Shown here: positions 5,723 to 18,145 of the stretch, in pieces
Layout of the letters: each line of letters starts with the position of its first letter
How positions within the stretch are numbered: position 1 is the first letter of the stretch
Assembly: GCF_029109325.1 (NCBI RefSeq)
Contig: NZ_JAQKQJ010000010.1
Location: 1 to 64,000 of the forward strand
Direction: 5' to 3'
Origin: Nodosilinea sp. PGN35
GTDB lineage: Bacteria > Cyanobacteriota > Cyanobacteriia > Phormidesmidales > Phormidesmidaceae
DNA length: 64,000 bases
The notes under the pieces: model-generated
The model's input: only the letters and a program-made list of their open reading frames with translations
Databases searched by the model: none
Told to the model about the DNA's origin: nothing
Made by a program: the position numbers and the translations under genes

Positions 5723-6598
5723 CTACGGGGGGGTAAGGCTGGGGTGTGGGCGATCGCCCGCTGCCTCCAGCTCGGCTCTGGGTGAACCTTCAACAGCGGG
5801 ACTGGGGGCGCTGGCCGCGATCGGAAACACCTGCTGGCCAAAGGGGGTGGTGAAAATCTCCACCTCCACCTGAAACACGTCCCGCAGGTTCTCGGCGGTG
5901 AGCACTTCAGCGGGCGGGCCGATCGCCCACAGGTGTCCCTGGCGCAGCATGGCCAGGCGATCGCAGTACCGCGCCGCCAGATTGATGTCGTGGAGCACCG
6001 TGACGATCGAGAGCCCCTGCTGGCGGTTGAGCCGCTTCAGCAGCTCCAACAGCTGGAGCTGATAGTGAATATCGAGAAACGTGGTGGGTTCGTCGAGCAG
6101 CAGCACCTGGGGGGCTTGGGCCAGGGCCAGGGCCAGGAAGGCGCGCTGGCGTTCACCGCCGGAGAGTTCGCTCACCGGGCGATCGCGGTAGGCCCCAAGC
6201 TCTGTCCAGGCCAGCGCCTGGGCTACCCGCTGCTGGCCCTCGGCGTCGAGGTCCCACTGCCACCAGCTCTGGTGGGGCGATCGCCCCAGGCTGACCAGCT
6301 GCTGTACCGTCAGCCCCTCGGGCAGGGTCTGCTGCTGGGGCAGCAGCGCCAGCGTTTGGGCCACGGCGGTGGGCGACAGGGCATGGATGTCGCGCCCCAG
6401 CAGCATCACCCGGCCCCCCTGGGGCTTGAGCACCCGGCTAAGCAGCCGCAGCAGCGTGGATTTACCGGAGCCGTTGGCCCCCACCAGGCACAGCCACTCC
6501 CCCGGCTCCACCGCCAGGTTGACCCCCTGGACAATCGGCTGGTTACCGTAGCCGCCGGAGAGATGGCGAGATTCTAAAGGTCGCGATTCTGGGGGCAT
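5723..6598 (-). CDS. Iron-siderophore ABC transporter ATP-binding protein (FecE type)
   Basis: 291-aa ABC ATPase. Walker A GANGSGKST (40-48), Q-loop in LLPQQQ, signature LSGGE (145-149), Walker B LLLDEP (166-171) and the switch His in VLHDINLA are all intact, matching FecE/FepC/BtuD. The start at 6598 lies 1 bp after the permease stop, so translation is probably coupled; a longer upstream reading only repeats permease sequence in another frame. The C-terminal about 40 residues (Pro/Ala/Glu-rich) extend past the usual end. It probably energises the permease next door and perhaps also the ATPase-less set at 11966-17537. Confidence 0.9.
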   Translation of the reverse strand: MPPESRPLESRHLSGGYGNQPIVQGVNLAVEPGEWLCLVGANGSGKSTLLRLLSRVLKPQGGRVMLLGRDIHALSPTAVAQTLALLPQQQTLPEGLTVQQLVSLGRSPHQSWWQWDLDAEGQQRVAQALAWTELGAYRDRPVSELSGGERQRAFLALALAQAPQVLLLDEPTTFLDIHYQLQLLELLKRLNRQQGLSIVTVLHDINLAARYCDRLAMLRQGHLWAIGPPAEVLTAENLRDVFQVEVEIFTTPFGQQVFPIAASAPSPAVEGSPRAELEAAGDRPHPSLTPP

Positions 6599-6599
6599 A

Positions 6600-7634
6600 T
6601 CAGCGTCCTCCCAGGGTGTTGCGGCGGTACAGCAGCCAGATGAACACGGGGGCACCCAAAAAGGCCGTCACCACCCCCACCGGCAGTTCCACCGGGCCGG
6701 CGCGCGCCACCAGATCCGCCGCCGCCAGCACCAGGGCACCCCCCAGGGCCGAAAAGGGCAGCACCAGCCGGTAGTCGGTGCCCACCAGCAGCCGCACCCC
6801 GTGGGGCACGATCAGCCCCACAAAGCCCACCAGCCCGGCGATGCTGGCGGCTCCGGCGGCCAGGAAGGTGGCCGCCGCGCCGATCCCCAGGCGCGATCGC
6901 ACCAGGGAGGTGCCCAGCCCCACCGCCAGATCATCGCCCAGGTTCAGCAGGTTCACCTGGCGGGCCAGCAGACAGCCGACCACCAGGGCGACGACCATCG
7001 CCGGCCCCACCAGCCGCACCTCCGCCCAGCCCCGCCCGTTGAAGCTGCCGATCAGCCAGTTCAGCGCCGCCTGAATGCGGCCGTCCCGCGCCGTCAGCAG
7101 CAGCAGCGACTGGATTGCCCCAAACAACGAGCTAAAGGCCACCCCGCCCAGGATCAGCCGCTCCACCGACAGCCCGCCCCGGCTACAGGCCAGCAGGTAG
7201 ACCAGGGCCGTGGTGGCGATCGCCCCCAGCCAGGCCCCCAGGGGCACCCACACCTGCCACAGCCCCAGGGTGACCACCAGCACCACCACCAGCCCCGCCC
7301 CGGAGGAAATGCCCAGCAAAAACGGGCTGGCCAGCCCGTTGCGCAGCATGCCCTGGAGCAGCGCCCCGGACACCCCCAGGGCAGCCCCCACCAGCAGCGC
7401 CGCCACCAGCCGGGGCAGGCGCAGATCCCACAGGATCACCTGGTGGGTGGGGTTGCCCTGGCGCAGCAGCGCCGCCCACAGTTCCGGCCCGCTCATCGGC
7501 ACCGAGCCCTGGGTGAGCGACAGCCCCACCACCAGGAGCAGCCCCAGCAGCAGCAGCCCCAGGGCCAGGGGCGTACGATAGGGCGATCGCCGGGGGCGCA
7601 CTTGAGGTTTAGGGGGTCGAGTCAGGGTCACCAT
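6600..7634 (-). CDS. FecCD family iron-chelate ABC permease
   Basis: 344-aa inner-membrane permease with about ten hydrophobic segments. Family signatures include LRLPRLVAALLVGAALGVSGALLQG, NGLASPFLLGISSGAG and GLVGFVGLIVPHGVRLLVG, and PVFIWLLYRR at the end. It works as a dimer with the ATPase encoded immediately downstream and a periplasmic binding protein. The 5' end overlaps the ferritin-like gene by 7 bp. Gene order on the minus strand is ferritin-like, permease, ATPase, then the TonB receptor, and the substrate-binding protein after the BrnTA pair. Confidence 0.9.
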   Translation of the reverse strand: MVTLTRPPKPQVRPRRSPYRTPLALGLLLLGLLLVVGLSLTQGSVPMSGPELWAALLRQGNPTHQVILWDLRLPRLVAALLVGAALGVSGALLQGMLRNGLASPFLLGISSGAGLVVVLVVTLGLWQVWVPLGAWLGAIATTALVYLLACSRGGLSVERLILGGVAFSSLFGAIQSLLLLTARDGRIQAALNWLIGSFNGRGWAEVRLVGPAMVVALVVGCLLARQVNLLNLGDDLAVGLGTSLVRSRLGIGAAATFLAAGAASIAGLVGFVGLIVPHGVRLLVGTDYRLVLPFSALGGALVLAAADLVARAGPVELPVGVVTAFLGAPVFIWLLYRRNTLGGR

Positions 7635-8068
7635 CCGCTAAAGTCCCGCAGCATTTTCTTAATTTCCAGGTTGTGCAGCTCCTCCTGGCCGATCTTGGTG
7701 CGGGCGTATTCCTCCAGGTAAATGCTGGCGTCTTCTACTAGGTCTAGCAGCTGCTTGTACATGGCCAGGGCCTTTTGCTCGTGGTTGAGGCTCTCTTGCA
7801 GCAGGTCGCGCACGCCGTGGCGGTGGGTCTCTTCAATGGGGGCAATGCGCTGGCTGGGGTGCCCCTCCAGCCCGGTGATGATCTCCCCTGCCTCCTGGGC
7901 GTGCAGCAGCGACTCCCCCGCCTGGGCCTTGAAAAAATCCACAATCGGAATCCGGTATGGCCCCGTCACCATCAATGAGTAGTGGGTGTAGCGCACCACC
8001 CCCGCCAGCTCAAACTCCATAATCTGGTTGAGTAACTCTGTCGTCGCCCGCGTATCCAGGTCTTGCAT
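7628..8068 (-). CDS. Bacterioferritin-like di-iron protein
   Basis: 146-aa four-helix ferritin-like protein. Candidate di-iron ligands in order: E18/E20 (IMEFE), E52 and H56 (GESLLH), E92/E97 (QESLNHE), and E129-H132 (QEELH), matching the ExxH pairs of bacterioferritins. A ferroxidase or iron-storage role fits its place as first gene of an iron-uptake operon. The ATG at 8068 is preceded by GAGAG at good spacing; a GTG at 8086 is an alternative. The 3' end overlaps the permease start by 7 bp. A heme-binding Met equivalent is not assigned. Confidence 0.8.
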   Translation of the reverse strand: MQDLDTRATTELLNQIMEFELAGVVRYTHYSLMVTGPYRIPIVDFFKAQAGESLLHAQEAGEIITGLEGHPSQRIAPIEETHRHGVRDLLQESLNHEQKALAMYKQLLDLVEDASIYLEEYARTKIGQEELHNLEIKKMLRDFSGW

Positions 8069-8143
8069 TGTTCTAACTCTCGTCACTTCCTAGCAAACCC
8101 ACGGCAATGCATCTGCCGCCCAATGTCACCCATGAAGTTTGTT

Positions 8144-8322: not shown

Positions 8323-10263
8323 CTATTCAGTCACGCTCCAGCACAGCACCCGCTCTGGAGCCAAATGCACATACCAGGGCATGGGCTGCTGCTTCCAGGT
8401 CTGCCACAGCTCCTTAGGCAATTCTGCTTGCAGGTGGTAATTCGCCCTGGGCTCCAAGCCGTCTGCCCGCTCTGGGCGACCATTGAGCTTGAGAAACAGG
8501 GTCACCCGGTGGGGTGTTTCGCTGGTGGAGACTACCCAGCCGGGAAAGGTGTTGGGCAGCTGCGGGGTTTTGACAAAGGCAATGTGGTGAGCTCGAAATC
8601 CTACCTGACTGAGGCCAGGGGGGATGGGCTCCACCACCTCCAGCACGCAGTTCCAGTCTTCAGCCTGGATGGTTGTGGGCGATAGCCTGGTGGCCCTAGA
8701 AAAATTCTTGCAGCCGGTGATCTGGGCTGCGATCGCACTGCCCGGCCGCTCAAACACCGCATGCTTTGTGCCAGAGGCAACAGGCTGCCCTGCCGCCATC
8801 ACCATAATCTGGGGGCACACCCGAAACACCTCCTCCAGATTATGGGTGACAAACAGTGTCACCCCGCCATAGCCCGCCAGTGTCTCGATCAACTGCTGCT
8901 CTACCTGGCTGCGCAGGTAGGTATCTAGCGCCGAGAGCGGTTCATCTAGCAACAGCACCTCTGGGGCTATGGCCAGGGCGCGGGCAAAGGCCACCCGCTG
9001 CTGCTGTCCCCCGGAGATCTGATCGGGGTAGCGATCGCCCAGACCTTGTAGCTGCATCGTCGCCAACCAGCCACTCACCCGCTGCATCCGCTCCCCCCTG
9101 GGCAAGTCCTGTAAGCCAAAGCCAATATTCTCAGCCACAGTCAAATGGGGAAACAGCGCGTAGGTTTGAAACAACAGCCCCACTCGCCGCCGATGGCTGG
9201 GCAAGTTGATCCCCGCCTCGCTGTCGAAAAGCACTCGATTATTCAGCACAATTCGCCCGCTGGCCGGAGTCTCTACCCCGGCAATGCACCGCAGCGTCAT
9301 CGACTTGCCCGAGCCCGATGCACCGAGAATGCCCAGCGGCTCAGCGCCAACCTCAAAGGAAACCTCTAGGGGAAAGGTGGCCAGAGGTTTATAGATCGTG
9401 ACGTGCAGAGATGGGGGAACGGAGGAGCGGGGGAACGGGGGCGGCGCAGGGGTCAGCTCTAACCCGGGGGGGAGAAAGGCTGCCTTTTGAGCAGCAGGGT
9501 AAACCGTTTGAGGAGCCAATGCCCATGGGCGCTTAACCCCATCCCCTCCTAGACTGGGTTGGGCCAGGTCTCGCCCGGTCTCAGGCAGCACAGTATTTGC
9601 CCGGCAATGGCGCTGGGCCTGCCACAGATTTGCGCCAACAATCCCTGAGAGCGACACCATCAAAATAATCGCCACCCATAGCCAGGCTTCATTCATTGCC
9701 CCGGCTTCTACCGCAAAGTAGATCGCCATCGGCATTGTCTGAGTCCGTCCCGGAATGTTGCCCGCCACCATCAGCGTCGCCCCAAATTCGCCCAGGGCGC
9801 GGGCAAAGGCCAGGGTGAGGCCCGCCAGCAGCCCCGGCACCGACAGCGGCAGCAAAATGCGCCAAAAAATTCGTCCCTCCCTGGCCCCCAGGGTGCGTGC
9901 CACCTGGATCAGCGTCGGGTCAATCTGCTCAAAGGCCCCCAGGGTGGTGCGATACATCAGAGGGAACGCCACCACGGTGGCGGCGATGACCGCCCCGTAC
10001 CAGGTAAAGATGAGGTTGATGCCGAGCGATCGCAGCCCCTGCCCCAGCGGCCCGCTGCGGCCCAGCACCAGCAGCAGCAAAAAGCCTACCACCGTCGGCG
10101 GCAGCACCAGCGGAGCCACCAAAACTCCCTCAATCAGCGATTTCCCCGGCCCCCGATAGCCCAGCATCCAGTAGGCGGCGGCAAGGCCTGAAAAAAAGGC
10201 AACCACCGTAGCCAGTCCGGCCACCTTTAGAGAAATCCACAGAGGCGATAGCTCTAAGGCCAT
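8323..10263 (-). CDS. modBC: Molybdate ABC transporter permease-ATPase fusion (ModBC)
   Basis: 646-aa fusion. Residues 1 to about 215 are a ModB permease (LAPLVLPPTVVGFLLLLVLG, then the EAA-like VARTLGAREGRIFWRILLPL and ALGEFGATLMVAGN). A Pro-rich linker of about 75 residues follows. Residues from about 290 are the ModC ATPase with Walker A GASGSGKS, signature ISGGQQQR, Walker B LLLDEPLSALD and a C-terminal regulatory region. Fused ModBC is known in cyanobacteria. The gene begins 5 bp after modA ends, so one transcript is likely. Part of the linker (PAPPPFPRSSVPPS) comes from G-rich near-repeats (GGGGGAACGG). Confidence 0.92.
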   Translation of the reverse strand: MALELSPLWISLKVAGLATVVAFFSGLAAAYWMLGYRGPGKSLIEGVLVAPLVLPPTVVGFLLLLVLGRSGPLGQGLRSLGINLIFTWYGAVIAATVVAFPLMYRTTLGAFEQIDPTLIQVARTLGAREGRIFWRILLPLSVPGLLAGLTLAFARALGEFGATLMVAGNIPGRTQTMPMAIYFAVEAGAMNEAWLWVAIILMVSLSGIVGANLWQAQRHCRANTVLPETGRDLAQPSLGGDGVKRPWALAPQTVYPAAQKAAFLPPGLELTPAPPPFPRSSVPPSLHVTIYKPLATFPLEVSFEVGAEPLGILGASGSGKSMTLRCIAGVETPASGRIVLNNRVLFDSEAGINLPSHRRRVGLLFQTYALFPHLTVAENIGFGLQDLPRGERMQRVSGWLATMQLQGLGDRYPDQISGGQQQRVAFARALAIAPEVLLLDEPLSALDTYLRSQVEQQLIETLAGYGGVTLFVTHNLEEVFRVCPQIMVMAAGQPVASGTKHAVFERPGSAIAAQITGCKNFSRATRLSPTTIQAEDWNCVLEVVEPIPPGLSQVGFRAHHIAFVKTPQLPNTFPGWVVSTSETPHRVTLFLKLNGRPERADGLEPRANYHLQAELPKELWQTWKQQPMPWYVHLAPERVLCWSVTE

Positions 10264-10268
10264 AGGGG

Positions 10269-11066
10269 TTAGTTCAGCAGGGTAAAGCCAAAGTCTTCAA
10301 ACACCGCCCCCGCCGCATCGCTGGCCAGGTAGTCGAGAAAGGTGCGGGCGGCTTCTGGACTAGCGGCATCGCCCACGATCGCCACCGGATAGACAATTGG
10401 GTCGTGCAGATCTTCAGCCGCCGTCGCCACCACCGTCACCTGCTCTGAAATGGCCGCATCGGTAGCGTAGACAATGCCCGCATCCACATTGCCCGACTCA
10501 ACGGCGGCGAGCACCCCCCGCACGTTGTTGGCAAAAACCAGCTTGGGCTGAAGGTCTGTCAAAATGCCCAGATTGCTCAGCACCTGCTCAGCATACTGTC
10601 CGGCGGGCACACTGCGAAACTCACCCACTGAAACCCGCTCTACCTCGCTCCGGGTCAGCTCAGGGAAGGCGGTCAGGCCCAGGGTAGAGTCGTTGGGGGC
10701 AATTAGCACTAGGCGGTTGCCCAGCAGATCTATGGAGGTATTGGGCAGCAGCAGATCTTGCTCTTCGAGGGCATCCATTTGCTGCACCCCGGCAGAAATA
10801 AAGACATCCACAGGGGCACCCTGCTCAATCTGCTGTTGCAGCGCACCGGAAGAGCCAAAGTTATAGTTGATGGCGATATCGGAGTGCTCCGCTTCAAAAT
10901 TGGTTTGCACCACCGCTAGGGCATCTTGAAGGCTGGCTGCCGCCGAAACCAGCAGCGTGGTCTGGGCCGCACTGCCCCCAGAAATCTCAGGCTGACAGGC
11001 CGTGCCCAGAGAGAGGCTCAGCCCAAAGGCAACCATCAGCGCTAGAAAATTACGTCTTTTTATCAT
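10269..11066 (-). CDS. modA: Molybdate-binding lipoprotein ModA
   Basis: 265-aa periplasmic binding protein. The N-terminus MIKRRNFLAL resembles a Tat-type signal and ends in a lipobox-like GTAC. Mature features: LLVSAAASLQDAL (oxyanion-binding Ser residues), NYNFGSSGALQQQIEQGAPVDVF, the GNRLVLI hinge, and AGIVYATDA, all typical of ModA. The ATG at 11066 is preferred; a GTG at 11093 would add nine polar residues. It is first in the modA-modBC unit, divergent from the RHH-Mop gene with a perfect palindrome between them. Confidence 0.9.
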   Translation of the reverse strand: MIKRRNFLALMVAFGLSLSLGTACQPEISGGSAAQTTLLVSAAASLQDALAVVQTNFEAEHSDIAINYNFGSSGALQQQIEQGAPVDVFISAGVQQMDALEEQDLLLPNTSIDLLGNRLVLIAPNDSTLGLTAFPELTRSEVERVSVGEFRSVPAGQYAEQVLSNLGILTDLQPKLVFANNVRGVLAAVESGNVDAGIVYATDAAISEQVTVVATAAEDLHDPIVYPVAIVGDAASPEAARTFLDYLASDAAGAVFEDFGFTLLN

Positions 11067-11134
11067 CTTTATAGAAGATGAGAACTGATCCACCGCGCCA
11101 CAGTGACAGCGAGCCGTACTGCAATTGCAAACAG

Positions 11135-11155
11135 AATACCAACCGAGTTGGTATT
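11135..11155. promoter_or_regulatory. Perfect palindrome between modA and the RHH-Mop gene
   Basis: AATACCAAC-CGA-GTTGGTATT is a 9-bp perfect inverted repeat with a 3-bp centre, the only strong dyad in this 116-bp divergent gap. It lies 28 bp before the RHH-Mop start and about 70 bp before modA. A homodimeric regulator acting on both genes is the obvious reading. Confidence 0.65.
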
Positions 11156-11182
11156 TGACTATGCCCTACCCTGAGTTTTGCT

Positions 11183-11623
11183 ATGCCCCGAAAAAGTCAA
11201 GGATGGATTACCTTTCAGGCCTCGGCGGCGGAGCGCCAGATACTGGATGACTACTGCCAGCGTAACCAGCGCTCCAAAACCGATATTCTGCGAGAATTGG
11301 TGCGGGGCCTAGAACAACGCGACGGGGAATTGCAGGCAGAGTCGGCAACTGCGGTGCCCTTCACAACGGAGCCGCCAGAGCCGAGCAGTTTGCAGGTCAA
11401 ACAGGACTTTGCCATCAGCGCCCGCAACCTGCTGCGCACAACCGTAACGGCGATCGCCTCGGACGGCGTCAATGTCGAACTCACCCTCACCGCTGCTCCT
11501 GGGGTTGAGGTAATTGCCATGGTCACCCTGGCCTCGGTGAAGCGCTTGAATCTGGCCGAAGGCAAAGAGGTCTACGCGGTGATTAAGGCCAACAGTGTGA
11601 TGGTCGCGGCGGTCGCACCCTAG
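11183..11623 (+). CDS. Ribbon-helix-helix-like plus Mop (molybdate-binding) protein, candidate regulator
   Basis: 146 aa in two parts. Residues 6-45 (WITFQASAAERQILDDYC, then RSKTDILRELVRGLEQR) look like a beta strand plus two helices, as in CopG/RHH DNA-binding domains of cyanobacteria. Residues 75-146 are a Mop/TOBE domain: SARNLL (79-84), GVNVEL, then VTLASVKRLNLAEGKEVYAV and IKANSVM, as in molbindins and the ModE C-terminus. An acidic, Pro-rich linker joins them. It is divergent from modA across a perfect palindrome, so a molybdate-sensing repressor or activator of molybdate uptake is inferred. ModE instead uses a winged helix. A storage-only molbindin role is the alternative. Confidence 0.8.
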   Translation: MPRKSQGWITFQASAAERQILDDYCQRNQRSKTDILRELVRGLEQRDGELQAESATAVPFTTEPPEPSSLQVKQDFAISARNLLRTTVTAIASDGVNVELTLTAAPGVEVIAMVTLASVKRLNLAEGKEVYAVIKANSVMVAAVAP

Positions 11624-11965: not shown

Positions 11966-13003
11966 TTACCGAACAGGATTTCGCCTCAGCATGAGCCAGA
12001 TCAGCACCGGGGCCCCGATCAGAGCCGTGACGGCGTTGAGGGGCAAGATCACCTGGCTGCCGGGCAGTTGGGCGACGCCGTCGGCCACCAGGGCCAGAAG
12101 TGCGCCGAGTAGGATCGAGGCGGGCACCAGCACGCGGTGGTCGAGGGTGCGAAACAGCGCCCGCCCCAGGTGGGGAACAGCTACGCCTAAAAAGGCGATC
12201 GGGCCGCAGAAGGCGGTGACCGTACCGGCTAACAGCGATGAGCTGACGATCAGGTACAGGCGCGTCAGCTGGATCGACAGCCCCAGGCTGAGGGCCTGCT
12301 CTTCACCCAGCAGCAGTAGGTTGAGCGGTTTGCAGGCCAGGTAGGCCAGCCCCAGCCCCAGGGCAATGATCGGCAGCAGCACGGGGATCTGCTGCCAGGT
12401 CACGCCTGCGAAGCTGCCAAAGGTCCAGCTTAGGTAGGCCAGGGCCTGATCAACCTGGCTGAAGTGCAGCAGGATGGTCACCAGGGCGGTGGTGGTGTAG
12501 CCCAGCATCAGCCCAAAGATCAGCAGCGCCAGGGAACTTCTCACCCGCTGGGCGACCAGCAGCACCAGGCCCATGGTGGCGGTGGCTCCCAGGCTGGCGG
12601 CGGCCACCAGGCTAATCTGGCCGAGCCACCCCGCCGCCCCGCTGCCGGTGAGCACCACCAGGGCGGCCCCCAAACTGGCCCCGGCATTGATGCCTAAGAT
12701 CGACGGCCCGGCCAGGGGATTGCGAAACAGGGCTTGCAGCTGGAGACCGCTAATCGCCAGGGCCGACCCGGCGGCCATTGCGGCGATCGCCCTGGGCAGG
12801 CGAAATTGCAGCACGATCGCCTGCCAGGACGCTCTGGCGGGTTCCCCCCCCAGCAAAATGGTGACCACCTGCGAGGGCGGAATCGAAACCGACCCCAGGG
12901 CCAGGCTGGCCAGAAAGACAGCCATCAGCAAAATGCCCAGACCGAGCAGACCCATCTGCCGAGGGGGGAAGGGGTGGGGTGGTGGGCGGGTGGCGGGGTG
13001 CAT
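11966..13003 (-). CDS. FecCD family metal-chelate ABC permease (second set)
   Basis: 345-aa permease with about ten membrane segments. Family motifs: FRLPRAIAAMAAGSALAISG, NPLAGPSILGINAGAS, FCGPIAFLGVAVPHLGRALF and PVLIWLMLRR. It is the last gene of a minus-strand set with a TonB receptor, binding lipoprotein and phosphodiesterase. The first 16 residues (Pro-rich) translate a G-rich repeat, so the true start may be the Met at 12955. No ATPase gene follows; the FecE-type ATPase at 5723 might serve both permeases. Substrate is unknown: siderophore, cobalamin or zinc chelate are all possible. Confidence 0.85.
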   Translation of the reverse strand: MHPATRPPPHPFPPRQMGLLGLGILLMAVFLASLALGSVSIPPSQVVTILLGGEPARASWQAIVLQFRLPRAIAAMAAGSALAISGLQLQALFRNPLAGPSILGINAGASLGAALVVLTGSGAAGWLGQISLVAAASLGATATMGLVLLVAQRVRSSLALLIFGLMLGYTTTALVTILLHFSQVDQALAYLSWTFGSFAGVTWQQIPVLLPIIALGLGLAYLACKPLNLLLLGEEQALSLGLSIQLTRLYLIVSSSLLAGTVTAFCGPIAFLGVAVPHLGRALFRTLDHRVLVPASILLGALLALVADGVAQLPGSQVILPLNAVTALIGAPVLIWLMLRRNPVR

Positions 13004-13018
13004 GGGTGAGGGGCGGGT

Positions 13019-13043
13019 AGGGGCAGACCTATGTGTCTGCCCT
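13019..13043. repeat. GGGCAGAC-N6-GTCTGCCC hairpin element, copy 1
   Basis: GGGCAGACCTATGTGTCTGC followed by CC, with 8-bp perfect arms, between the permease and phosphodiesterase genes. Six more copies lie at 34238, 35109, 39255, 49823, 49903 and 51731. Confidence 0.7.
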
Positions 13044-13066
13044 GGGGGAATGGATGGAAGGGAGGA

Positions 13067-13852
13067 TCAGGTGGGGGCCGGGGAAGGAACCCGTCGGATT
13101 TCGGTGTGGTAGCTGCCGCTGGGGTGGAGGGTGAGGAGCCGGAAGCCAGGCCAGTGGTGATCGGGCGTTGGGGTGGAGGGGGTGACCTGGAGGCCGGTGG
13201 AGGGGCACCCATAGCAGGCGATCGCCCCGGTCTGAGTTTGCAGGGGGCGATGAAAAGCCTGGTGAATGTGGCCAAACAGAATCAGCTGCACCTGGCTGAA
13301 GCCGTTGAGTAAAGCCAGCAGAGCGTCGGCGTTTTGCACCTGCATTTGGTCGAGCCAGTCGATGCCGGTGGGCACCGGGTGGTGGTGCAGGGCCAGGGCG
13401 GTGGGTTGATGGCGGTGCCGGGTCAGCTCGGTGCGCAGCGATCGCAGGGTAGCGGGGGCCAGAGCCCCTTCGCCAAACTGCGCCCCCGGCAGTACCGAGT
13501 TGAGCAGCAGCAGTCGCCAACTGCCCAAATCAATCGACTCCAGCCCCTGCCGCTGGGGGCCACGGTATTGAGTTCCCTGGAGTATCGCTTGCGCGGTGGC
13601 ATCGTCGTCGTGGTTACCGGGTACCCAGTAGACGGGCAGATGGAGGGGGGCGATCGCCTCCCTCAGCTGCTCATAGGCGGCGCGATCGCCCCGATCGGCC
13701 AGGTCGCCGGTCAGCAGCAGTCCATCGGGCTGGCACTGCGCCACCTCGCGCAGCACAGACCGAAAGCTCTGCCAGGGGTTGCAGCCGCGCAGTTGGGCGG
13801 TGGGGTCGGTGAGCAGGTGGGTGTCGGTGATTTGGGCGAGGGTGAGGGGCAT
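13067..13852 (-). CDS. CpdA-like metallophosphoesterase (cyclic-nucleotide phosphodiesterase family)
   Basis: 261-aa calcineurin-like phosphoesterase. All metal motifs are present: QITDTHL (DxH), LTGDLADRG, PGNHDDD, LHHHP and FGHIH. The pattern and length match the CpdA/3',5'-cAMP phosphodiesterase group; the real substrate cannot be read from sequence. It lies between the binding-protein and permease genes of a metal-chelate uptake set and is probably cotranscribed, an uncommon position for this enzyme. A cytoplasmic location is expected since no signal peptide is visible. Confidence 0.85.
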   Translation of the reverse strand: MPLTLAQITDTHLLTDPTAQLRGCNPWQSFRSVLREVAQCQPDGLLLTGDLADRGDRAAYEQLREAIAPLHLPVYWVPGNHDDDATAQAILQGTQYRGPQRQGLESIDLGSWRLLLLNSVLPGAQFGEGALAPATLRSLRTELTRHRHQPTALALHHHPVPTGIDWLDQMQVQNADALLALLNGFSQVQLILFGHIHQAFHRPLQTQTGAIACYGCPSTGLQVTPSTPTPDHHWPGFRLLTLHPSGSYHTEIRRVPSPAPT

Positions 13853-13873
13853 AGGGGTGGGGGGGGGAGGGCA

Positions 13874-13900
13874 TTTGAACGTTCGAACGTTTGAACGTTG
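13874..13900. repeat. AACGTT palindrome cluster, copy 1
   Basis: AACGTTCGAACGTT (13878-13891) is a perfect palindrome followed by another TTGAACGTT. Related arrays occur at 31525, 41758 and 49506. Confidence 0.65.
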
Positions 13901-13908
13901 GATGGGGG

Positions 13909-15159
13909 TTAGGGGGTGAGGGGTTGGTAGTAGATGAGGGTGTGGTTGGGTAGTAGGTCGGGGTGGAGAATTTTGATCAGATCGGCCAGTACCCAGTGGG
14001 GGTTGAGCGGGCCGCTCTCCCAGTAGTCGTTGCCGCCGCTGGGGTTGAGGCGGGCATTGTTGTTGAAGACCCGGCCCGATTGCAGAGCCAAAAACTGGCC
14101 GTAGCGGGGGTCGGCGGCGATCGCATCTCCCTGAGAAAACCAGTCCTGGCTGACATTCACCCAGACATCGGCGCTGGCGGCCCGGTCGTAGACCGCCTCA
14201 AAATCGAGGGGCAGGCTGCCGGCGCGATCGCTGGCGGCCCACAGGTAGGTGGCCCCGGCATCTCTGAGCAGCTGGGCGGCGTAGCTCTGGCCCCCCGGCA
14301 TGTACCAGGTGCCCTCGTAGCTAAAGCCGGTGAAGACCGTCGGTCTTAGCTCCAGGGATTGGGTGAGCTGCACCAGGGCGTTGTAGTCCTGGGCGACGGT
14401 GCCAAACACCTGCTCAGCTCGGGCCTCCTGGTTAAAGAACAGGGCCGTGAACTTCAGCCATTCCGCCCGCCCCAGGGGGGATTGCTCCAGGTACTCCGCC
14501 ACGATCGCCACCGGCACCCCGGCCTGAATCAGGCGATCGTGGCTGTCGGTGGCGGCATTGCCTGTGGCAAAGGCCATCACCAGGTCGGGCTCCGCGTCGA
14601 TCAGGCGCTCCAGGTTGACCGCGCCGCCCGAGCTAAACTCCTGCAGGTCGCCCCGATCAATTTTTTGGCGCACGCTAGCCGTATTCACCGTGGCAAACTG
14701 GTCTACCCCCACCAGCGCTTCCACCTCGCCCAGCGCCTCCAGGTGGGGCAGGTAGGTGGTCGAGAGGGCCGCCACCCGCCGTACCGGCACCTCAATCACC
14801 TGGGCAGATTCAAAGCGGGGGGGCACGGGGGTGCCACACTGCACCAGGACGTAGGTAAACGCGCTGTCGGCATCCTGCCAGGGGGAATGCACCGTCACCA
14901 CCTTGTAGTGGCGGTGATACGCCACCGCAAACCCCTTGGCGTAGGTTGGCTCCACCTGGTCAGGAAAATAGTCCTCGGTCGGATCGTAGGTGGTGACACA
15001 GTCCGCTGCCTGAGCCGTTGTGTCAACGGTGCCGGGGGCCGGTTGGGTCAGCGGGCACCCCCCTAGGGTCAGGGCGACCGCCGCGAACCCCAGCAGTTGA
15101 CCGGCTGCCCTGAGGGGGACGGGAAGAGGAACAGGGACGATTGGTCTGAGCAAGGGCAT
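13909..15159 (-). CDS. Substrate-binding lipoprotein, FecB/BtuF-like (second set)
   Basis: 416-aa periplasmic lipoprotein. The signal peptide (MPLLRPIVPVPLPVPLRAAG, then a hydrophobic stretch) ends in lipobox LTLGGC. A binding-protein fold follows: VRRVAALSTTYLPHLEALGE, VGVDQF, VNLERLIDAEPDLVMAFATG and a C-terminal domain with GFSYEGTWYMPGGQSYAAQLL. It is longer than usual, with about 90 residues before the first beta strand. The start at 15159 gives a clean signal peptide; an alternative ATG at 15282 overlaps the receptor stop by 4 bp. It should hand the chelate from the TonB receptor to the permease. Confidence 0.8.
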   Translation of the reverse strand: MPLLRPIVPVPLPVPLRAAGQLLGFAAVALTLGGCPLTQPAPGTVDTTAQAADCVTTYDPTEDYFPDQVEPTYAKGFAVAYHRHYKVVTVHSPWQDADSAFTYVLVQCGTPVPPRFESAQVIEVPVRRVAALSTTYLPHLEALGEVEALVGVDQFATVNTASVRQKIDRGDLQEFSSGGAVNLERLIDAEPDLVMAFATGNAATDSHDRLIQAGVPVAIVAEYLEQSPLGRAEWLKFTALFFNQEARAEQVFGTVAQDYNALVQLTQSLELRPTVFTGFSYEGTWYMPGGQSYAAQLLRDAGATYLWAASDRAGSLPLDFEAVYDRAASADVWVNVSQDWFSQGDAIAADPRYGQFLALQSGRVFNNNARLNPSGGNDYWESGPLNPHWVLADLIKILHPDLLPNHTLIYYQPLTP

Positions 15160-15278
15160 GGGGGGCAAGCTTGCGGGGGGAGGTTGGGGTGGAGCTAGGG
15201 GGCTCCCTTCCTGGGAGACCTGGGCTGAGTCTGTCGAAGCGGGCGGGGTGGAGCCTCTTAGATATTGAGTATTCCTCA

Positions 15279-17537
15279 TCAAAACTGACTGCGGAGCCCC
15301 ACCTGAAAATTGCGCCCCAGGCCGGGGAAGCCAGGAAACTGCTCAAACTGGGTATTAAACAGGTTGTTGACGCTGGCGTTGACCGCCAGGGCCTGGCCCA
15401 GGGGTACCCGCAGCTTGACATCCAGGGTGGTGCGCCCCGCCAGCAACTCTTGGTTGGCGCGATCGACCAAGACATTGCTGATGCCGCGCACAAACAGCGC
15501 CCCGTAGAAGCCCTGGGGCGTTTCGTAGGCGAGGCCGAGGTTAAAGCTGTCGGCGTGGGTGAAGGGCAGCAGGTTGCCGCGATCGCTCGGGTTGGCGCTC
15601 TCGCGAATCCTGGGATTGTTCCAGGTGTAGTTGGCAAAGGCAAACAGGTTGTCCAACAGTTGATAGTTCAGCTCGGCCTCCAGACCGATGGCCTCGATCC
15701 GGCCAATGTTTTGGGGGGTGAAGGTGGCCAAATCAAAGCTGATGGCATCGCGAAGGTCGTTGCGGTAGGCGGTCAGGCGCAGCAGTCCGCGATCGCCCAA
15801 CTGCTGATCGATGCCCACATCCAGGCTGAGCCCCGACTCGGGCGCGAGGTTGGGGTTGTTGAAGGGGGCAAAGAACAGGTCGGCCAGGGTGGGCACGCGG
15901 AAGTTGCGGGCCAGGTTGGCGCGCAGGTTGGTGGTCTCGGTGAGCTGCACCCGTGAGCCCAAATTAAACGAGGTAAAGGAACCCCCAACCAGGTTGTTGA
16001 AGTCCTGGCGCACCCCCACATTCGCGCTAAAGCCGGGGGTGACATCGGCCTGGTAGCGGGCGAATAGTCCGGCCTGGGCGATGCCGCCCCGGTAGTTTTC
16101 GGTGAGGCTGTCGGTCCGCAAATTGAGGGTGGTGTTGTTGGCCACCACCTGGCGGTAGTCCACCCCGTAGGTGAGGTTTTGGTTGGGGGCCAGCTGCCAG
16201 GCGTGCTGCACCTGTGCCCCCACCGAGGATTGAGCCACCCGGTCGCGGGAGGGGGCAGCAAAGGGGCCATCGGCCACCGGATTGTTAAAGGTCAGGCTGA
16301 GCAGGTCGCCAAACAGGCGGGCGGTGAGGCGCGAGTCGTCGGCCAGGCCCAGGTTGGCTGTGTAGGTGAGGTCGAGGAGCCAGTTTTCGCTGTACTGGCG
16401 ATCGTCGTCGGTCAGCGCGTTGAACCCGCCAGCGCTACTGCCCGGCACCGGCACGCCCCCCGGTGCCCCCAGATCTTTGCTGAGAAACAGCAGGCCAAAC
16501 CGCAGTCGACTGCGATCGCCCAGGGTCGTTTCGGCACTCATATTGAGGTTGTTGTAGAGCACGTCGGCGTTGGTGCGCACGCCCTCAAACGCCGTCGAAG
16601 TCAGGCTGAAGGGGAAGGCATTGGCGGCGGCGGTGCGGTTGTAGCCCAGCGCCCAGCTCAGATCGTCCTCGCGGCCCCGCAGCTGAATCACCTGGTCGTT
16701 GAAGCCAAAGCTGCCCACCGCCGCCGTGGCCGCTGTCTCCAGGCCCGCCGCAGGGGGGCGACGGGTAATGATGTTGATCACGCCGCCCATGGCATTAGAC
16801 CCGTAGAGCACCGAGCCACCGCCGGGCAGCACCTCAATCTGCTCTACCCCATCGGTGGTGAAGGTCGATAGGTCAAAGGCCCCAAAGGCCCCAATCTCAT
16901 TCAGAGGCCGCCCATCCAGCAAAATCAGCGTCTGGGACGACACCCCACCCCGAATGAGCTGCCCGCTCGGAGCACCCAACTGCCCCCCGGCGGTGCCTTC
17001 ACTCAGCACTCCCGGCAGATAGCGCAGAGCCTCACTCACCGTGCGCGCCCCCTGGGCCTCCATCTGCTGGCGGTTGATCACATACACCGGCTGGCTCGAC
17101 TCCCTCACTGTGCCCTCCCGTCGGAATGGGGTGAAAACGGGCTGATCGAGAATTTCCCCGGTGACCGAAATCCGAATTCGGGGGGTGGTGTCCTCGGGGG
17201 GCTTGGGATCTGGAGCCGGGTCTAGCGGTGCGGCCTGTTTTCCCCGCCAGCGGTGCAGTTCCGCCCGCCGGTCGGCCAGGGCGGGTGGCTGAGGCCAGGC
17301 CAGCAGGGCCGCCTCGGTGGCGACGGTCTCCCCACCGGAGACCGTCGCCCCATCACCCGAAAGTTCATCTGCCAGTGGCGAGGGGGTGGGGCGGTCTGTC
17401 GAGGTGGCCTCGCCGCGTTCCAGAGGCTCGGCCCAGGCGGTTGCAGAGTCTGACCCGAGGCCAGCGATCCACAGCAGTAGGGCGATCGCACTCAGTTGAG
17501 TAGCGAAAAGTGGGGCAAAGCGTTTGATCGGTTCCAT
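15279..17537 (-). CDS. TonB-dependent outer-membrane receptor (second set)
   Basis: 752-aa receptor. A signal peptide ends near ATAWAEP. After a Pro-rich linker comes a plug: VYVINRQQMEAQGARTVSEA, LRYLPGVLSEG, QTLILLDGRPLNEI, EVLPGGGSVLYGSNAMGGVI and NIITRRP. The barrel runs to the terminal FQVGLRSQF. The plug resembles BtuB and siderophore receptors. The start at 17537 is chosen for its signal peptide; upstream in-frame sequence has none. It is first gene of the set ending at 11966. No cobalamin riboswitch core, Fur box or Zur box was found in the 340 bp upstream. Nearby zinc genes make a zinc chelate conceivable, but nothing proves it. Confidence 0.85.
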   Translation of the reverse strand: MEPIKRFAPLFATQLSAIALLLWIAGLGSDSATAWAEPLERGEATSTDRPTPSPLADELSGDGATVSGGETVATEAALLAWPQPPALADRRAELHRWRGKQAAPLDPAPDPKPPEDTTPRIRISVTGEILDQPVFTPFRREGTVRESSQPVYVINRQQMEAQGARTVSEALRYLPGVLSEGTAGGQLGAPSGQLIRGGVSSQTLILLDGRPLNEIGAFGAFDLSTFTTDGVEQIEVLPGGGSVLYGSNAMGGVINIITRRPPAAGLETAATAAVGSFGFNDQVIQLRGREDDLSWALGYNRTAAANAFPFSLTSTAFEGVRTNADVLYNNLNMSAETTLGDRSRLRFGLLFLSKDLGAPGGVPVPGSSAGGFNALTDDDRQYSENWLLDLTYTANLGLADDSRLTARLFGDLLSLTFNNPVADGPFAAPSRDRVAQSSVGAQVQHAWQLAPNQNLTYGVDYRQVVANNTTLNLRTDSLTENYRGGIAQAGLFARYQADVTPGFSANVGVRQDFNNLVGGSFTSFNLGSRVQLTETTNLRANLARNFRVPTLADLFFAPFNNPNLAPESGLSLDVGIDQQLGDRGLLRLTAYRNDLRDAISFDLATFTPQNIGRIEAIGLEAELNYQLLDNLFAFANYTWNNPRIRESANPSDRGNLLPFTHADSFNLGLAYETPQGFYGALFVRGISNVLVDRANQELLAGRTTLDVKLRVPLGQALAVNASVNNLFNTQFEQFPGFPGLGRNFQVGLRSQF

Positions 17538-18145
17538 GGAAAAATGCCTGTGCTCAAGGGTTAGAAAAACAGCTCCCCAGGCGCAGCAAAATCCTGCACC
17601 CAATGGAGGTTCAGAAAAGTGAAGGAGGGGGCGATCGCAAATCAGAATCCGGCAATGCAAAGCACAATGAGCACCACCCCAGGGCAGTGCTAATAGCCGC
17701 AATCTGATTTACAAAACCGCAGGCAATGGCTCGGCAACAATGCCTGAGTGACAACCAATTCTTAGAACGGGAGCTGTGTAGGGACGCTCCTAGGGCAATA
17801 CGATCGCGATCGCGCAACCATCAAAACAGTCATCATCCGTACCTCGCAGATGTTGTGGAATAGGGGTTAGTCATCGGCGGGCATTCTGACTTAGGCAAGC
17901 GGGTATCGAGTATTGGGTACTCGGTTTTGGGTAGAGCCGATTAGCTCAATCCCTGAAACCTGAACCCCAAAACCTGAAACCTCCCCTGCCAATACAGCTG
18001 CGGGACAGCGGCAGATTCTCACTGCTCTTTCCCCGTTTCCTCCAGCGGCTGCTCCCCGCTGGAACCGAATCAGACTGCAACATACCACACAATCCCCAGA
18101 GCAGCACGCCAGAAAGTTAATACAAAGCCTTGAACGAAATTGAAT
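17538..18145. other. Long intergenic region with hairpin repeats, no gene found
   Basis: The 600-bp gap between the divergent TonB receptor and COG0523 genes holds GGGAGC(N11)GCTCC around 17770 and a GGGTACTCGGTTTTGGG stretch (about 17910-17990) facing AACCTGAACCCCAAAACC, another member of the GGGTNTCGG repeat family. No supported ORF. Confidence 0.5.

Follow-up and report, generated by a model that had tools for sequence, protein, structure and literature searches.

The window analysed here is a 64,000-nucleotide stretch of the genome of Nodosilinea sp. PGN35, in which a gene encoding a protein of 146 amino acids (11183-11623, forward strand) was found to be divergent from modA, for a molybdate-binding protein (10269-11093, reverse strand, with an alternative ATG start at 11066), and from a fused modBC, for a permease and ATPase (8323-10263, reverse strand). 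This layout had been given in the initial annotation and agrees with the ORF list and with profile matches above cut-off for modA (TIGR01256) and modB (TIGR02141), with a match to Pfam ABC_tran also found for modBC. The 146-residue protein joins an N-terminal domain predicted to be of the ribbon-helix-helix (RHH) type (amino acids 1-45, 11183-11317, forward strand) to a C-terminal Mop/TOBE oxyanion-binding domain (amino acids 77-143, 11411-11611, forward strand), and is referred to here as RHH-Mop. A palindrome predicted to be an operator lies between the divergent genes. As every orthologue begins with the conserved residues MP(R/K)K, the ATG at 11183 is supported as the start codon.

ModB and ModC were identified as one fused protein of 646 amino acids (8323-10263). 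Pfam and TIGRFAM profile searches gave no match to a TOBE domain in its ModC part, so the transporter's own feedback sensing may be missing. As read from the translations, the flanks of the mod locus (5723-8086 and 11966-17702) hold iron(III)-siderophore-type ABC transporter genes, a bacterioferritin-like gene and a TonB-dependent receptor gene.

Domain composition of the RHH-Mop protein

The single Mop domain reported in the initial annotation was recovered with two profiles, both above their cut-offs, namely Pfam TOBE (PF03459; one match, amino acids 79-141, E-value 3.8e-16, 59.5 bits, cut-off 22.3) and TIGR00638 Mop (69.4 bits, cut-off 55). Among solved structures, this half of the protein resembles molbindins and ModE. 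Its ligand positions (S79, R81, T115, S118 and K135) were found to be invariant among 26 non-redundant orthologues (clustered at 80% identity) and align with S126, R128, T163, S166 and K183 of ModE, which we take to be ligand residues. Four of them (S79, R81, T115 and K135) also align with S4, R6, S40 and K60 of tungbindin, residues that contact tungstate in crystals (PMC11980592). A match on a Klebsiella plasmid was observed to span amino acids 14-142 at 28% identity.

The N-terminus had been described as CopG/RHH-like, and structure prediction, as proposed at that time, bore this out. In the AlphaFold2 model of residues 1-46 (pLDDT 82), two helices (15-28 and 32-45) follow an extended GWITFQ segment; the strand that this segment would form is absent from the monomer model, as is expected without a dimer partner. 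Comparison with the PDB using Foldseek gave 30 matches, nearly all of them RHH proteins, including TacA, AtaR, ParG, MazE-type antitoxins, ParD, CopG, YiiF, AmrZ, PutA, MatP and Arc (all of which we take to be of this fold). Each match is individually weak (best E-value 0.84), and since each E-value is near 1 the fold call rests on the mutual agreement of the matches, which would not be expected by chance. No Pfam RHH profile matched the protein of the window, above the curated cut-off or otherwise, while weak matches to RHH_1 were identified in 10 of the 26 relatives (best E-value 0.0027), with weak TraY and RHH_9 matches among relatives too. Sequence and profile searches of the N-terminus against PDB chains returned nothing meaningful, and for this reason its fold is taken from the structure comparison. 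When the full-length model was compared, the dominant Mop domain drew mostly Mop and ModE chains as matches. The annotation of a related protein on a Nostoc plasmid reads 'ribbon-helix-helix protein, CopG family'. From AlphaFold2 and Foldseek, the beta-alpha-alpha fold of the RHH/CopG superfamily is predicted for the 45 residues of the N-terminus.

Within this domain G7, W8, T10, F11 and Q12 are invariant among the 26 orthologues, and W8, T10 and Q12 appear to alternate in the manner of RHH strand residues that face DNA. Conservation is highest in the N-terminus, at a mean column identity of 80% versus 59% for the protein as a whole. This bears on the reading of the protein as a storage molbindin, whose N-terminal extension would not bind DNA. 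Storage of molybdate or tungstate is indeed known for Mop domains of comparable size (PMC11980592), and the Mop ligand residues here are intact; against this stand the conservation and predicted RHH fold of the N-terminus, the co-occurrence of the fusion with a conserved operator (also in trans, see below) and a separate stand-alone Mop gene (an 82-codon ORF) in the same genome, approximately 15 kb from nifH. Because the N-terminal half is the best conserved and a separate Mop exists, storage as the main role is most improbable, and the original preference for a molybdate regulator over a storage molbindin is retained.

The palindrome and its distribution among Cyanobacteria

A perfect palindrome between modA and the fusion had been noted previously, and it was found to be exact (AATACCAAC-CGA-GTTGGTATT, 9+3+9, at 11135-11155). 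Allowing up to 3 mismatches revealed no second copy in the window, and 100 shuffles gave 0. Comparison of the upstream regions of orthologues yielded a conserved core of 17 bp, TACCAA-N5-TTGGTA (11137-11153), whose distance from the fusion's start codon is mostly 30 bp or less. Its conservation beside orthologues, a check that had been suggested, was clear: in 19 of the 26 non-redundant orthologues an exact core lies no more than 100 bp from the start, and in 21 a core with one mismatch or fewer does so, compared to a mean of 0.03 in dinucleotide shuffles scored at one mismatch or fewer and none with the reversed control pattern. Certain Nostoc orthologues beside modA have a degenerate site only (L060, L063, L100), and a few orthologues have no site near the start (L003, L005, L018). 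Across 1.26 Mb of fusion loci 45 exact sites were found versus 0 reversed-control sites, and half-sites between modA and the fusion were enriched 13-fold (109 in 6,509 bp). Summed over 28 fusion genomes, exact sites numbered 103 and control sites 23.

In the 6.39 Mb genome to which the window belongs, the sole exact site is that beside the RHH-Mop gene, and the predicted regulon there is therefore this divergent pair only. One-mismatch sites were rejected as further members, since they do not exceed the level of the reversed control (11 sites in all versus 12). No sigma-70-like promoter was found around the operator, so that repression by occlusion is an assumption.

The same fusion was sought beside modA in other Cyanobacteria, as had been proposed; by our own count it is present at full length in 42 of 386 sampled cyanobacterial genomes, and in many loci it is divergent from modA with the layout seen here. 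A scan of GTDB genomes gave 207 relatives, all of them cyanobacterial among the matches listed (80 of the 207). Sites were also found where the transporter genes are separated from the fusion. Preceding modBC genes that lie apart from it are sites matching 11-12 of the 12 positions (L188, L189, L191, L198, L206). In L200 a site belonging to modBC itself lies 1 kb away from the fusion, and in L179 modA-modBC and the fusion are on separate contigs, with an exact site ahead of modA-modBC. Within the 1.5 kb that precede modB, 15 of 30 fusion genomes have a site matching at least 11/12 and the other half have none, versus 0 of 30 fusion-free genomes with such a site (Fisher p = 6e-6, a value that overstates independence as the genomes are related).

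Two copies of the RHH-Mop gene were observed in Trichormus sp. NMC-1 (L109:6157-6582 and 8739-9164), approximately 2 kb apart. Many Nostoc were found to possess a second, unlinked RHH-Mop paralogue with a site approximately 220 bp upstream.

Sites in vanadium-nitrogenase clusters

In some Nostocaceae the same site was found before vnfR-like and vnfH genes (L163, L170, L174, L240-L242), and before a further ModA-like gene that resembles ava4025 (L161, L171). Some vanadium-nitrogenase clusters also encode, adjoining nifV, a Mop-less RHH protein of 65-69 amino acids with the same N-terminus as the fusion. Its genes (L165:4003-4197, L177:4420-4626 and L262:20001-20195) have an exact TACCAA-N5-TTGGTA ending 6 bp before the start codon, a spacing equal to that at the RHH-Mop fusion. 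Since the Mop-less gene has the site at this same spacing, the site follows the RHH domain and not the Mop domain.

On plasmid p057_H of Nostoc sp. C057 (L262), which carries a vnf cluster, the short RHH gene is unannotated and lies between nifV and a 2OG-Fe(II) oxygenase gene. Within 40 kb of this plasmid lie six sites of at least 11/12, compared to 0 for the control; the genes that they precede are modA, modD, the RHH gene, a PEP-CTERM gene and a gene for a molybdopterin-binding (Mop) protein. The site by modD (11/12, L262:10151) is immediately upstream of this gene, which suggests that modD belongs to the regulon. The operator was also observed upstream of a gene for an HSDR_N-only protein of approximately 300 amino acids in four genomes (L163:10228-11166, L170:3337-4227, L173:4092-4982 and L159:4815-5828), in vnf clusters or near Mop genes.

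These occurrences raise the reading that the palindrome serves a different regulator, such as VnfR1 or VnfR2, and that its position by the fusion is incidental. The VnfR proteins resemble the predicted regulator in that their repression depends on Mo; the same operator is found at some of their genes, and VnfR1 binds in vitro upstream of the ava4025 promoter according to a review (PMC4284476). They differ from it in possessing HTH_3 and a PBP-like domain, with neither RHH nor Mop. Moreover, a VnfR homologue is absent from the genome of the window and from 20 other fusion genomes, several of which have the site at the fusion gene, and the site tracks the RHH domain in the Mop-less genes (L165, L177, L262). 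Owing to this absence VnfR is not the reader of the site in this genome, and an incidental position is very unlikely, although VnfR might share sites with the RHH protein in strains with vnf genes.

Predicted regulation and relation to known systems

Cyanobacteria need molybdenum for nitrogenase and nitrate reductase. No ModE winged helix (TIGR00637) was identified above cut-off in the 386 cyanobacterial genomes, and the RHH-Mop protein gave no match to this profile. The best score in the genome of the window was 24 bits, for a 317-codon frame elsewhere; the one substantial match below cut-off came from a genome with 9% contamination, and the remaining matches were weak and mostly to frames of approximately 300-400 codons, as expected from LysR-type regulators. 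The ModE-type operator (CGTTATAT-N8-ACATAACG) is absent from the window, while the pattern does find the E. coli operator. ModE of E. coli is a molybdate-responsive regulator of modABC with a palindromic operator by the transporter genes, a role that is predicted here, and the ligand residues of its Mop domain are shared (39% identity across 59 amino acids). However, in ModE a winged helix at the N-terminus is joined to two Mop domains, whereas RHH-Mop has an RHH domain and one Mop, and their operators are unrelated; the regulator would thus be of a type different from ModE, as the initial annotation held.

NikR possesses an N-terminal RHH domain and a C-terminal metal-sensing oligomerization domain, and acts by co-repression at a palindromic operator by uptake genes. 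Judged from sequence and model, RHH-Mop follows the same logic, with an RHH domain, a sensor domain and a palindrome by uptake genes. The sensor of NikR is an ACT-like nickel domain, whereas the C-terminus of RHH-Mop is a Mop, with no ACT-like nickel domain found, and the half-sites of NikR are further apart. In the simplest model RHH-Mop has the function of ModE and the build of NikR, and by these comparisons it belongs to neither family. The stand-alone molbindins Mop/Tub and ModG share the Mop/TOBE fold and its ligands but have no DNA-binding domain and a role in storage or homeostasis. TaoR-like proteins also join another DNA-binding domain to TOBE for Mo/W regulation (PMC11980592), although they contain HTH_17 and an extra PBP-like domain, neither of which RHH-Mop has.

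In Anabaena variabilis, molybdenum and tungsten repress a Mo-transport gene, and a 'modE homolog' located just upstream of modA is named as the probable repressor (review PMC4284476, citing Zahalak 2004). Because it occupies the same genomic place and no ModE helix-turn-helix exceeds the cut-off in cyanobacterial genomes, this homolog is probably an orthologue of RHH-Mop, in which case the regulatory role has probably been anticipated in part. No literature on RHH-Mop, or on CopG with molybdate, was found, nor any description of the RHH architecture and operator, and the relevant passages of the review (PMC4284476) mention neither.

From its sequence and predicted structure, RHH-Mop is likely to be a molybdate- or tungstate-responsive co-repressor of the mod genes, a functional stand-in for ModE with a NikR-like build; physical DNA binding, the oxyanion sensed, co-repression as opposed to induction and the oligomeric state are what we infer. 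In the proposed mechanism, the N-terminal RHH domains would dimerize and insert a beta-ribbon, with W8, T10 and Q12 pointing outward, into the TACCAA/TTGGTA half-sites, a mode of binding to which the conserved palindromic layout of these half-sites gives indirect support. With a centre-to-centre distance of 11 bp between the half-sites, two dimers would probably sit side by side. The C-terminal Mop domains would bind molybdate or tungstate at subunit interfaces, and the oxyanion-bound form would lock the assembly into its DNA-binding state with the RHH dimers in register, comparable to the effect of nickel in NikR. With plentiful oxyanion, the protein would then occupy 11135-11155 and switch off both divergent promoters, that of modA-modBC and that of its own gene.

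The opposite effect, with RHH-Mop acting as an activator or as a repressor that molybdate releases from DNA, is unlikely. The direction of an allosteric effect is not readable from sequence, and the site is located approximately 50-80 bp upstream of the modA start; its nearness to the fusion's own start codon in most orthologues nevertheless suits repression, as does the repression of a Mo-transport gene by Mo and W in A. variabilis described in the review (PMC4284476).

Co-repression by RHH-Mop would give the Cyanobacteria, which are apparently without ModE, a specific candidate protein together with an operator of 17 bp and a predicted set of target genes, and would illustrate how a sensor domain can be combined with a different, unrelated DNA-binding fold. 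More tentatively, and with some doubt on our part, RHH-Mop proteins may be a family of molybdate repressors in their own right, taking the place of ModE in many Cyanobacteria, with an operator network that in Nostocaceae reaches the vanadium-nitrogenase cluster (vnfR-vnfH, the ava4025-like ModA gene, modD, Mop and the Mop-less RHH paralogue by nifV), so that one DNA code read by RHH proteins would link the choice of nitrogenase, Mo- or V-dependent, to the supply of Mo. If the sites at the V-nitrogenase genes are functional, they would help to explain the repression of the alternative nitrogenase by molybdenum.
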